A DNA stretch of 64,000 nt from Halegenticoccus soli (lineage in GTDB: Archaea > Halobacteriota > Halobacteria > Halobacteriales > Haloferacaceae). Of this stretch, positions 14,056-17,913 are shown in pieces (positions within the stretch are counted from its first letter, which is position 1; each line of letters starts with the position of its first letter). Under the pieces are notes generated by a model. It was not told the origin of the DNA, did not search any database, and saw only the letters and a program-made list of their open reading frames with translations. Where the stretch lies: positions 248,001-312,000 of the forward strand of contig NZ_PEND01000006.1 of the NCBI RefSeq assembly GCF_002844195.1, written 5' to 3'. The position numbers were made by a program, and so were the translations under genes.

Positions 14056-15090
14056 TTACTTCTCTTCGTCCTTTCGCGACCCCCGCCGGAGCGTCGAGAA
14101 GCGGCGAACGGCGTTCATGTCCGGCCGATCCCGCGACGGGAGGGTCGAAAACCGCGACCGACCCGACGCGCCGCTGGCGCGCGCGCCGTCTTCGTCCTCG
14201 GCGTCGTCGCGGCCTTCCTCGCTCCCTTCGTCCTCCTCGACGGTTTCGTCCGGCCGATCGGCGGACGCCTCGTCCGCTCCGTCGGCGTCGAACGACTCCC
14301 GAGCCTCCCGAAGCCCGTCGGAGAGCTCCGCCACGGAATCGAGCAGCCGTTCGCGGAGCGCCTCCCCGGCGGACGGGTCGCCGTCTCCGTCCTCCTCTTT
14401 TCCGCCTCCGTCCGCTTCTCCGCCTTCTTCTCCCTCCTCGCCGACGCGCTCTCGTTCCTCTCCGGGAGGCTCGCTCCCCTCTTCGGCGCTTTCGTCCTCC
14501 GCTTCGGCGCTTTCGCGCTTCCCTCCCTCGTCGCCTTCGCGGTCACTCCCCTCCGCGCCATCGACTCCGTCCGCGTCGTCGACCCCGTCGACCTCGTCCG
14601 CGTCCTCGGTTCCGTCCGCGCCCTCGTCGTCCGAAAGGAACTCGGTTAGCAACCCGCTCAGCGTCGACTCCTCCGCCCTTTCCGCGCCGTTTCCGTCGCC
14701 TTCGTCGCCGTCGTCGCCGAACTCTCGGAGCCACGACGCCAACTCCTCGTCGTCGCGTTCCACCGCGCTTCCGAGGTCGTCCATCCGGAGCAGCTTCCGC
14801 AGTCGGACGAGCGGATCCGCGTCCGCGTTCGCCACGAGCGCCGGGAGGTCGGTCGGGTCGATCTCCGAGGGGAGGTCGGTGAACCCCGCCGCCCGGAGCA
14901 ACTCGTCGATGGACGCGTCTTCGAGCGACTCGCCGCCCTCGCGCGCGAGTCGCCGCAGCTCCTCCCGATCTTCGTCTGAGAGGTCGGCCCCTCCCTCGTC
15001 GGCGTCCCCGGTGATCGATTCGGCGCGCTCTTCGATCTCCGCGAGGAGTTCGTCGAGTCGTTCGATCTCTTCGGTCTCGTGTTCGGACAT
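14056..15090 (-). CDS. Very acidic low-complexity protein with C-terminal tandem RFSTL repeat
   Basis: A 344-residue protein, last gene of a five-gene minus-strand cluster. The N-terminal 140 residues look folded and helical (ERLDELLAEIEERAESI; LSDEDREELRRLAREGGESL; SIDELLRAAGFTDLPSEIDP; RLRKLLRMDDLGSAV). A long Glu/Asp/Gly low-complexity stretch follows (about 160-300). The last 30 residues are basic and carry a tandem motif, RFSTLPSRDRPDM and then VRRFSTLRRGSR, in strong contrast to the acidic body. No known family is recognised. The start at 15090 is an ATG, 78 bases after the previous gene. The acidic body and basic tail suggest a scaffold or binding protein; that is inference. Confidence 0.78.
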   Translation of the reverse strand: MSEHETEEIERLDELLAEIEERAESITGDADEGGADLSDEDREELRRLAREGGESLEDASIDELLRAAGFTDLPSEIDPTDLPALVANADADPLVRLRKLLRMDDLGSAVERDDEELASWLREFGDDGDEGDGNGAERAEESTLSGLLTEFLSDDEGADGTEDADEVDGVDDADGVDGAEGSDREGDEGGKRESAEAEDESAEEGSEPPGEERERVGEEGEEGGEADGGGKEEDGDGDPSAGEALRERLLDSVAELSDGLREARESFDADGADEASADRPDETVEEDEGSEEGRDDAEDEDGARASGASGRSRFSTLPSRDRPDMNAVRRFSTLRRGSRKDEEK

Positions 15091-15168
15091 CGTCCCTGGC
15101 GTGTCGGTTCGGTCGGGAGCCGCGCGGTCAGCGATCGAGCCAGTCTCCGACGAGACGGACGAGGCGGT

Positions 15169-16044
15169 TCAGTCCGTCCCGCCCTCTTCCGGCCCGCTCT
15201 CTGCCGTCCCGTCGTCTTCCGCCCCGCTCCCTTCGGCCCCGTCTCCTTCCGGTTCCCCGTCGTCGCTCCCGTTCCCTTCGGATTCCGATTCGCCTTCGGC
15301 GTCCACGTCCTCCGAGAAGCGGTCGACGATCCGGTTGATCATCTCCTCTCTGCTCAGGTTGGCCTTGACGCCGACCTGCTTGGCGACGGACTGGAGGTCC
15401 CGGTACGACATGACTTCGAGGAGTTCGCGGTAGGTCTCCTTCTTCAGATCCCCGAGGTCTCCCTCGGAGAGGTCGCCGATGTCGACCGGCGCTCCTTCGA
15501 CAGCCCCTTCGGTTCCGTCGGTCTCCTCCGCCTCGGCGACCTCCTCCGCCGCGTCAGCCTCCCCGGTTTCTTCGTCCGTCTCCGTCCCCGTCTCCTCGGT
15601 CGTTTCCTCGTCGGCCGCTTCCTCGGCCGCTTCTTCCCCCTCGGCCTCCTTCTCCTCGCCGCCTTCCGGCGGTGGGCGGGCGGCGCTTCCGGCTCCTTCG
15701 GCGAGCGCCGTCAACCGCTCTTCGAGCGCGTCGCGGAAGCCGCTCGTCTCGGCCGCGTTCCGCAGCGCCGTGCGGAACGCTCCGAGCGCGCGTTCGAGCG
15801 GCGACGGCGATTCGTCCGATCCGTCGGACGAGCCCGGCCGGACGCGTCGACCGGCGCGCCGACCCAGTTCCCGTCCGACCGTCGCGCCGACCGCCGCGCC
15901 GACCGCCTTTCCGAGCTTCCCGGCGTCGATCTTCTCGGCGACGTCGCCCTCGCCGAGGAGGTCCGCCACGTCGAGCTGCTCGTCGAGCTCGTCCCGGATC
16001 GCCCGCTTGAGCGTCGGTCCGTCACCGCCCCCGTTCCCGCTCAC
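15169..16044 (-). CDS. Acidic protein with glycine-zipper segment and SAP/Rho-N-like module
   Basis: A 291-residue protein with a GTG start at 16044. Residues about 42-68 form a glycine-zipper-like helix (AGKLGKAVGAAVGATVGRELG) preceded by an amphipathic helix (LKRAIRDELDEQLDVADLL). Residues about 82-118 are helical (LERALGAFRTALRNAAE), and a Glu/Thr-rich linker runs from about 125 to 185. Residues about 203-245 (YRELLEVMSYRDLQSVAKQ, then VGVKANLSREEMINRIVDRF) resemble a SAP or Rho-N helix-extension-helix module, which in other proteins binds nucleic acid. The tail is again acidic. It belongs with the adjacent acidic genes. The DNA- or RNA-binding role is inferred only from this similarity. 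Confidence 0.78.
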   Translation of the reverse strand: MSGNGGGDGPTLKRAIRDELDEQLDVADLLGEGDVAEKIDAGKLGKAVGAAVGATVGRELGRRAGRRVRPGSSDGSDESPSPLERALGAFRTALRNAAETSGFRDALEERLTALAEGAGSAARPPPEGGEEKEAEGEEAAEEAADEETTEETGTETDEETGEADAAEEVAEAEETDGTEGAVEGAPVDIGDLSEGDLGDLKKETYRELLEVMSYRDLQSVAKQVGVKANLSREEMINRIVDRFSEDVDAEGESESEGNGSDDGEPEGDGAEGSGAEDDGTAESGPEEGGTD

Positions 16045-16113
16045 GGCTCACCACCGCCGGCGCGCGGGCCCGTCGGGGGGATCGACCGCACGATCCGGGA
16101 GGTCACACGGCGT

Positions 16114-16500
16114 TCACCCGCCCTCTTCGTCTGTTTCGCTCGCTTCATCTCCGTTCTCGCTGTCCTCGTCCGTCCCCTCGGCTTCGTCGGCCTCGTCACT
16201 TTCGGCCGATTCCCCGTCGTCCGCATCGTCCGACTCGTCCGATTCGTCCGACTCATTCGACTCGTCCGGCTTTTCTCTCCCGAGGACGTTGACGGCCATC
16301 CACGCGCCGAGAAGGCCGCCCAGCCACTCGCCGAGGTGCCGTCCGACGATCTCTCCCAGCCGGCCGCCGATCGCCTCGGCGACCGAACCGCCCTCGTCGA
16401 GGACGCCTTCGAGTTCCGTGCCCTCGAAGATCTCGTCGAAGTCCACGTCCTCTCCGACCTGATCGAGCCCCGCGTCTTCGATCAGCGATTCGTCGCTCAT
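16114..16500 (-). CDS. Small acidic protein with amphipathic glycine-zipper helix
   Basis: A 128-residue protein. Residues about 39-74 form one long glycine-spaced amphipathic or membrane-active helix (VAEAIGGRLGEIVGRHLGE then WLGGLLGAWMAVNVLG). An N-terminal acidic segment (DFDEIFEGTELEGVLDEG) precedes it, and a Ser/Asp/Glu-rich tail of 50 residues (ESDESDD-type repeats) follows. The ATG at 16500 overlaps the stop of the preceding gene by four bases (ATGA), so the two proteins are probably made in a fixed ratio. The glycine zipper parallels that in the next protein of the cluster. No family was recognised. Confidence 0.78.
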   Translation of the reverse strand: MSDESLIEDAGLDQVGEDVDFDEIFEGTELEGVLDEGGSVAEAIGGRLGEIVGRHLGEWLGGLLGAWMAVNVLGREKPDESNESDESDESDDADDGESAESDEADEAEGTDEDSENGDEASETDEEGG

Positions 16501-17201
16501 GCTTCGGCCTGCTCGCCGCTCTCGTCGCCTTTCGACTTACCGTCGAAGAGCTGCCGGACGAGCTCCTTGAGCAGCTGCGTGAGCAGCTCTTCGAGCGGCA
16601 GATCCCTCACGATCTCGCCGAGCGCGCCCCGGATCCGATCCGCGAGCGACGCGACGAACCCCTTCGAATCGTCGTCGCTCTCCCCGTCGCCGCCGAAGAG
16701 GCCGCCGAGCAATCCGCCGGGAAGGAGGTCGTCGAGGCCGCCGCGGTTCAGGAGGTTGGCGACCGCCGAGAGGAGGTTGCCGACCAGCCGGCCGTCACCG
16801 GGAACGGCCGACACGTCGAGGACGACCTCGTCGAGGTCGACTTCCAGCCCGAGGAGGTTGAGAAACAGGCCTTCGAGATCGAGGAACAGGACGGTCGTGC
16901 CTTCCTCCTCCTCGTCCTGGTCTCCTTCTTCCTCCTCTTCCTCCTGGTTCCGCTCTTCTTCGGCTTCCACCTCCCCTTCTTCGCCCTCTTCACCCTCTTC
17001 GCTCTCTTCGCCCTCTTCGCCCCCGGTCTCTTCGCCCTCGCCTTCTTCTTCGCCTCCGTCCGGGAGGAGTCGAACCTCCGTCGACGCGCCCCGAGAGGCG
17101 GCGGCTACGTCGCTCCCCGATTCTTCGCCGAATTGGGGGTTGAGAATGCGAATCTTTTGTACGCGTTCGCTATCGTGCGAAAGTGTATCCTCGGCGGTCA
17201 T
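16497..17201 (-). CDS. Glu-rich protein with LNLLG/GNLL hydrophobic module
   Basis: A 234-residue protein. The N-terminal 45 residues are mixed; residues about 50-100 are almost all Glu, Gly and Asp. Residues 103-151 form a hydrophobic beta-rich module (TTVLFLDLEGLFLNLLGLEV; then VVLDVSAVPGDGRLVGNLL). From memory, a similar LNLLGL...VPGxGxLLGNLL pattern recurs in uncharacterised secreted or surface proteins of actinobacteria and haloarchaea. A glycine-rich loop (PGGLLGGLFGG) and amphipathic helices (LADRIRGALGEIVRDL; LTQLLKELVRQLFDG) follow. There is no signal peptide. A palindrome overlapping its predicted TATA box suggests repressor control. The function is unknown. Confidence 0.8.
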   Translation of the reverse strand: MTAEDTLSHDSERVQKIRILNPQFGEESGSDVAAASRGASTEVRLLPDGGEEEGEGEETGGEEGEESEEGEEGEEGEVEAEEERNQEEEEEEGDQDEEEEGTTVLFLDLEGLFLNLLGLEVDLDEVVLDVSAVPGDGRLVGNLLSAVANLLNRGGLDDLLPGGLLGGLFGGDGESDDDSKGFVASLADRIRGALGEIVRDLPLEELLTQLLKELVRQLFDGKSKGDESGEQAEA

Positions 17202-17215
17202 GTAACGCTCACAGC

Positions 17216-17234
17216 AAAAATACGGCGTATTTTT
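17216..17234 (-). promoter_or_regulatory. Perfect 9+1+9 palindrome overlapping the promoter of the acidic gene cluster
   Basis: AAAAATACGGCGTATTTTT is a perfect inverted repeat with nine-base arms and one central base. It lies 15-33 bases upstream of the ATG at 17201, where a haloarchaeal TATA box is expected (an AT-rich TTTAAAAAAATAC continues outward). The symmetry and position suggest a dimeric repressor operator for the downstream genes. Confidence 0.6.
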
Positions 17235-17364
17235 TTAAATCCCTACTGGCCGTTTTTCAAGCGGATCCGCTCGGAACGCGGTGGACGCGGTGCGGAGAGA
17301 CGCGCCGCGCCCGAACCGACGATGGCGGCCGGGTGCGATCCGTCGACGAACGGATCCCCCCGGA

Positions 17365-17913
17365 TCAGCGCGGCTCCGGACCGCCCACGCCCGCTCCCGC
17401 CGCGCGGTCGATCACGCGTCGGACCCCGTCGGCGGCGGCGCGCCGCGAGGGGAACCCCCTGCCGCTCATCGCGATGATGTCGTCGCTCCCGTCGACCAGC
17501 CGCCAGCGCCACTCGCCCGCCCTGTCCTCGTAGATCTCGAAGCTTCCCGCCTCCTCGTCGTCGAGGCGGTCCAGCGCGACGCTCCCGGAGAGCTCTCGGT
17601 CGTCCGGTGATTTCCCCTGTCGCGCCTCGTCGCCCCCGTCGCTCTCGTCGCTCTCGTCGGAGACGCTCCACTCCAGCTCCACTTCGAGGGAGAGCTCGGA
17701 ACCGTCCTCGCTTTCGCCCTCGTCCGGCTCCTCGCGCTCTATCTCGAACTCGACGAGGAGCTGATCCGGGGGAGTCACGGTCGCCGCGGCCTCCCCCGCG
17801 GTGAACGTGATCGCGCCGCCGCGGGCGAGGCCGTCGGCCAGCTCCCGGAACAGCGCGGCGGTCGCCGCCCGCCGGATCGGTCGTTCGAACTCGAAGATGG
17901 TCTCGTCGCCCAT
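17365..17913 (-). CDS. amphi-Trp domain fused to DUF1508 (YegP/HVO_2922-like) domain
   Basis: A 182-residue soluble protein with two recognisable halves. Residues 1-90 match the amphi-Trp pattern: IFEFERPIRRAATAALFREL, then GGAITFTAGEAAATVTPPDQLLVEFEIE, then LSLEVELEW. After an acidic linker, residues about 122-172 match the DUF1508/HVO_2922 module (FEIYEDRAGEWRWRLVDGSD, then FPSRRAAADGVRRV). DUF1508 domains dimerise and occur alone or in tandem; their role is unclear. This is the first of five same-strand genes, separated from the second by 163 bases that contain the palindromic promoter, so it may be transcribed separately. Confidence 0.82.
   Translation of the reverse strand: MGDETIFEFERPIRRAATAALFRELADGLARGGAITFTAGEAAATVTPPDQLLVEFEIEREEPDEGESEDGSELSLEVELEWSVSDESDESDGGDEARQGKSPDDRELSGSVALDRLDDEEAGSFEIYEDRAGEWRWRLVDGSDDIIAMSGRGFPSRRAAADGVRRVIDRAAGAGVGGPEPR

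Follow-up and report, generated by a model that had tools for sequence, protein, structure and literature searches.

What is encoded by the five same-strand genes, A to E, at positions 14,056 to 17,913 of a 64,000-nucleotide stretch of the genome of the haloarchaeon Halegenticoccus soli (contig NZ_PEND01000006.1; the whole stretch is called the window here), and do they form an undescribed, compartment-like system, as a first-pass annotation had proposed? The open reading frames of all five genes were confirmed on the minus strand, and four of them, B-C-D-E, very probably belong to the gas-vesicle system. Taken as a whole, B-C-D-E is probably an accessory operon of those haloarchaeal gas vesicles that lack GvpC, in which it would coat, shape or strengthen the shell, E being a GvpI-like protein. 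The assignment as an accessory operon is based on the conservation of the operon, its co-occurrence with gvp genes, its physical linkage to gvp clusters in relatives, the paralogy of E and GvpI, and a promoter element common to B and gvpA. The idea of a structural, non-enzymatic and compartment-linked system, with B, C and D outside curated families, was a good one. However, the homology of E to GvpI, together with the distribution, linkage and promoter data, points to an unrecognised part of a known organelle rather than to a new, free-standing compartment.

A conserved four-gene operon

What is conserved is the minus-strand operon B-C-D-E (14056-17201), without A. Same-strand B-C-D-E was kept across 24 compared loci, E being missing from a few of these B-C-D loci, and the four-base overlap of B and C seen in the window was found almost everywhere. 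Since the operon is flanked by different genes in different genera, its conservation is not passive synteny. The gene-order conservation holds for B-C-D-E but not for A, which had been counted as a member of the cluster: the locus of the sister genome (L036) reads IleRS-E-D-C-B-glpA, with neither A nor the DUF2270 gene, and A was also absent from the other module loci read, by which its membership was ruled out. In the window, A is separated from B by a gap of 163 bases, and its adjacency to B-E is not conserved in relatives. Its description as an amphi-Trp/DUF1508 fusion was correct, with Pfam matches to Amphi-Trp PF20068 (1e-20) and DUF1508 (5e-9).

For B, C, D and E, no family scored above the cut-off in Pfam, NCBIfam or PADLOC, so that B and C were discarded as members of known families, and by these comparisons B, C and D are three protein families without a curated name. 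The models for GvpC (PF05465) and Gas_vesicle (PF00741) gave no match in B-E or their homologues, and a plasmid collection searched with B gave none either. A literature search that covered few subscription papers returned no prior description of B-C-D in gas vesicles.

Association with gas-vesicle genes

The distribution of the operon was analysed at two levels, in 171 genomes of the family and in 394 genomes drawn from across the order. B was located by profile searches; a scan with a full-length B pattern fell on acidic low complexity and yielded one locus. Within the order, GvpA-family genes (PF00741) are carried by 135 of the 137 B-positive genomes, as compared to 29 of the 257 B-negative ones (Fisher p 2.5e-73, a value for which related genomes are not independent). 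The two B-positive genomes without GvpA-family genes correspond to one weak match and to one fragmented genome that contains GvpN. Within the family, GvpA-type genes were found in 44 of the 171 genomes, and the 23 genomes with B are all nested within these (Fisher 1e-16). An independent search for D, based on its aligned SAP-like domain, returned exactly the same 23 genomes, all of them gvp-positive, and in genus g5 the operon occurs solely in the gvp-positive member (G018). A weak 24th B match in the family (G077) was dropped, there being no gvp and no D in that genome. The B negatives are soft, because the acidic linkers fill the first-look filter, as in G377, where D is present and B was missed.

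The window genome itself (G000) has a full gvpA-O / F-G-H-E2-J-K-L-M cluster, which is unlinked to the operon (contigs C4 and C6, respectively). In relatives, the module was found inside gvp clusters. In Halocatena pleomorpha (L001), module genes are located between gvpH and gvpJ, with a single zipper protein and no separate D; L145 and L161 have the order gvpH-B-C-(GvpI-like)-gvpJ; and in L127, L149 and L162, B and a zipper gene lie between gvpH and gvpJ, while D adjoins gvpO. The module flanks the gvp cluster at L052, L054-L057, L128, L129, L132, L134, L135, L146-L148, L154 and L155. In the unselected family sample the module is linked to gvp genes in 5 of the 23 genomes; the overall linked fraction is not unbiased, because some loci were chosen for B being close to a GvpA match. 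Compared with the described haloarchaeal gvp/vac clusters (gvpACNO and gvpDEFGHIJKLM), B-C-D(-E) is found inside or beside them in many relatives, co-occurs with them near-perfectly, shares the gvpA promoter element at B and contains with E a protein of the GvpI line. It differs in that it is usually a separate operon elsewhere in the genome, in that B, C and D match no Gvp family, and in that it accompanies clusters without gvpC (and gvpD/E).

In genus g15, an extra zipper/D-like gene is located right after gvpM (L085 6240-7145, L086 9660-10832), the B-C-D module being elsewhere in the genome; these are the sole module genomes of the family with GvpN. A solitary extra gvpA outside the gvp cluster was observed in the module-bearing genomes G008 and G102 (L078 9219-9494, L080 10165-10386).

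Gene E and the GvpI family

In the gvp clusters read in module-bearing genomes, the gvpI slot between gvpH and gvpJ is occupied by E2, a protein of ~280-380 residues, and not by E. The N-terminal helical domains of E and E2 matched in a profile-profile comparison (hhalign) with a probability of 99 and an E-value of 6e-18. The basic repeat tail of E noticed in the first-pass annotation, S-T-x-P...R-x-D-M...R-x-S-T (consensus STVPSSRxDM...RxST), is conserved in 18 homologues, and a model of this tail matches E2 at up to 2e-8 (shuffled controls above 5). E2 in turn has a C-terminus of the classical GvpI type, SRNPTAxSTMP...STVPxxTRYSxAPNRxRIYGxRF, and a model of the E2 tail matches classical GvpI at 6e-16 to 3e-10 (shuffled controls 0.6 or worse). 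Compared directly, E and classical GvpI match weakly, at 0.001 to 0.002 at best. A profile match to a known complex, which the first-pass annotation had set against the novelty of the cluster, was thus found in part, E being a GvpI homologue by profile-profile search.

In a tree, 41 E and 57 E2-type sequences fall into two separate clades with a support of 1.0, which suggests one old duplication. By these sequence criteria E is an ancient paralogue of long GvpI, and it is classed as such rather than as GvpI itself because E2 holds the gvpI slot. GvpI has a pI of about 10.8 (PMC9501494), whereas E is acidic overall and basic in its C-terminal tail alone. Long GvpI proteins were noted earlier in Natrialba magadii and Haloterrigena turkmenica (Nmag_0338/Htur_2370; PMC3403918). 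E has the same N-terminal helical domain and STVP-type basic C-terminal repeat, but it belongs to an old clade of its own; its tail is shorter and does not end in RIYGxRF, and its gene is found elsewhere than in the gvpI slot. Where the module is linked, E2 comes directly after B-C, and duplication of such a B-C-E2 segment may have given rise to the unlinked operon.

In Halobacterium, loss of GvpI results in extremely long vesicles; the protein has GvpH, GvpF and GvpL as binding partners and causes GvpJ, GvpK and GvpM to form oligomers (PMC7688916). E most likely acts, by analogy, as a second assembly/termination factor of the GvpI type.

Promoter elements

The element CGGCCAGT, a few bases before a TTAA box, is common to the B and gvpA promoters in the window genome and in the sister genome. 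The composite CGGCCAGTN{3,6}TTAA has 3 sites in the 4.6-Mb genome: one is at B, one at gvpA, and the third lies within a dehydrogenase-like coding sequence. A perfect 19-base inverted repeat, AAAAATACGCCGTATTTTT (17216-17234), follows the TATA box, ahead of the start of B, and is unique in the window; it was rejected as a conserved operator, as it was not found before B in other loci. In genus g18, a short inverted repeat followed by a GCC box is present in both promoters, of the CTTGCTATGGCAAG type at B (L043-L045, L047, L050) and CCTGCATTTGCAGG at gvpA (L087, L088, L094-L096), and may possibly be another shared operator.

Relation to GvpC and proposed role

GvpC stabilises and shapes the vesicle shell, and its loss leads to long, weak vesicles (PMC7688916). 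Multi-repeat GvpC was found in 0 of about 80 gvp-positive genomes with B, as compared to about 21 of 42 without B (p about 1e-11). This pattern recurs within genera g55 (G434 versus G217/G231) and g51 (G221 versus G228), whose species have either the module or GvpC. The complementary distribution suggests a role in shaping or strengthening the shell comparable to that of GvpC (Halo_GVPC, PF05465), although B-E lack sequence similarity to GvpC and its 32-residue repeats, and four proteins would take the place of one. GvpN is missing from 21 of the 23 module genomes of the family, but GvpN and B coexist widely in other families, and the module was therefore ruled out as a GvpN replacement.

From architecture and distribution we infer physical binding, a coat or shape role, and a role of the SAP-like domain as a tether to DNA, RNA or another protein. 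C and D would bind each other or the GvpA-type shell via their glycine-zipper/amphipathic helices, B would contribute its hydrophobic LNLLG domain and acidic arm, and E would bridge acidic partners via its basic STVP-type tail and limit rib growth, as GvpI does. Together, B-E would coat, shape or strengthen the GvpC-less shell, on which B, C and D are a putative coat or aid to assembly. That the module takes over the coat and shape role of GvpC is a tentative proposal, to which we give slightly less than even weight. Somewhat more doubtful is its broader form, according to which B, C and D are new gas-vesicle families that constitute, with a second GvpI-type protein, a non-homologous GvpC replacement, that is, an independently evolved coat/shape system present in most gvp-positive haloarchaeal genomes sampled.

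Several observations weigh against this interpretation. The absence of GvpC is confounded with that of gvpD/gvpE and with the second cluster type overall, and several GvpC-less species were reported to be without vesicles (PMC4390858). In about 20 genomes that have gvp genes and no GvpC, neither B nor D was detected, so that the module is not compulsory, and a single GvpC repeat of marginal score (22.8 bits; cut-off 22.4) was seen in one genome with B (G232). The promoter motif was seen first and counted afterwards and is thus supporting evidence at most. The structural model of B was poor (pLDDT 51) and was kept out of the fold search, and most of the D model was also poor.

In an alternative reading, B-E is a regulatory operon that replaces GvpD/GvpE: D would bind DNA through its SAP-like domain, and gvp expression would be tuned with the remaining proteins as co-factors. 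No gvpD/gvpE is present between gvpA and gvpF in the module-type clusters read, some GvpC-less species have been noted to lack both genes (PMC4390858, PMC3403918), and the SAP-like fold and the promoter element common to B and gvpA would fit such a function. However, B and C are hydrophobic and zipper proteins, unlike regulators, and lie within the accessory-protein operon, adjoining gvpH and gvpI, where the module is linked; E is a paralogue of GvpI, which works in assembly (PMC7688916); and the weak match of the D domain is uninformative on DNA binding. A regulatory role is thus considered unlikely. An involvement in the positioning, clustering or segregation of vesicles, with the zippers and E gripping the vesicle and the SAP-like domain of D tethering it to the nucleoid or another scaffold, appears equally improbable: it would account for the modular architecture with a possible nucleic-acid domain and for the gas-vesicle link, but the operon encodes no ATPase or other positioning protein, nucleic-acid binding by D is putative, and L001 has one zipper protein and no separate D. 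That the operon has nothing to do with gas vesicles and is found together with gvp genes simply because both are common in the same lineages, as its location on another contig than gvp in the window genome would allow, is largely refuted and very improbable in view of its physical insertion in gvp clusters, the E/GvpI paralogy, the promoter element, its restriction to G018 in g5 and the switch with cluster type in g55 and g51.

Gas vesicles are buoyancy organelles that are also studied for ultrasound contrast, and their mechanics are usually tuned through GvpC. Many haloarchaeal clusters lack GvpC and, with an operon that is often unlinked, the parts list may have been incomplete when such clusters were assessed. 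A shell-associated role of B-E would make them four candidates for shaping or stiffening vesicles under high-salt conditions.

Protein modules of the locus

The modules recognised in the first-pass annotation are largely borne out by the alignments (Table 1). The LNLLG core of B is nearly invariant among 18 homologues, and the glycines at i,i+4 spacing are invariant across 19 homologues of C and 22 of D. Both zippers contain the conserved GxxxG series; the Pfam glycine-zipper models match weakly, below cut-off. Acidic arms are present, as had been described for the Glu/Asp-rich linkers, but partly reflect mere haloarchaeal acidity, and neither their length nor their sequence is conserved.

Table 1. 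Features of the A-E locus, with positions in the window.
Feature	Position	Strand	Description
Gene E	14056-15090	-	344 aa; paralogue of the long GvpI (E2) of the gvp cluster
Basic tail of E	14059-14154	-	RFSTLPSRDRPDMNAVRRFSTLRR...; GvpI-type STVP repeat (E-tail HMM vs E2)
N-terminal helical domain of E	14698-14994	-	Homologous to E2 (hhalign)
Gene D	15169-16044	-	291 aa; glycine zipper, helical/acidic linker, SAP-like C-terminal domain
SAP-like domain of D	15307-15477	-	Candidate helix-extension-helix (predicted structure; D-domain search)
Glycine zipper of D	15841-15924	-	Invariant G49, G53, G57, G61; helix 41-68 in model
Gene C	16114-16500	-	128 aa; DF-x-E-x-FEGT motif, glycine zipper, acidic tail
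Glycine zipper of C	16303-16380	-	Invariant G45, G53, G57
Gene B	16497-17201	-	234 aa; acidic arm, LNLLG hydrophobic domain, C-terminal amphipathic helices
LNLLG core of B	16746-16895	-	Invariant G/L/N columns, 18 homologues
Promoter element before B	17235-17252	-	CGGCCAGT-AGGGAT-TTAA (TATA-like); composite shared with gvpA promoter
Gene A	17365-17913	-	Amphi-Trp + DUF1508 fusion (HVO_2922-like)

The SAP-like module of D was predicted as helices at residues ~194-252, with a pLDDT of up to 96. Foldseek gave a high probability to SAP-type domains, though with E > 0.4, and most of the weak PDB matches of this domain carry SAP/HeH domains (DEK, 3'hExo, PIAS1, Rho, Tho1, Hcc-1; all E > 0.4). Pfam SAP_new25 scored 0.0015 in one D homologue, below cut-off, and neither B nor the SAP-like domain of D had a credible match in sequence searches of the PDB. 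The model makes the C-terminal domain of D a candidate for a SAP-like fold, and its nucleic-acid binding is putative. A few D homologues resemble YtxH/phasin/apolipoprotein-like coat proteins weakly (E 4e-4 to 6e-3), mainly in their Ala/Glu-rich helical linkers; these matches are probably composition-driven, and D of the window itself gives none at E 0.01.

Stand-alone LNLLG proteins of 189 aa were found away from gvp clusters (L059 9104-9673 and L060 9918-10487), so that the LNLLG domain extends beyond the gas-vesicle module. G236, G250, G256, G269, G405, G426 and G434 each have a second, shorter match to LNLLG that contains in-frame stop codons; these may represent either frames around another LNLLG family or decayed copies.

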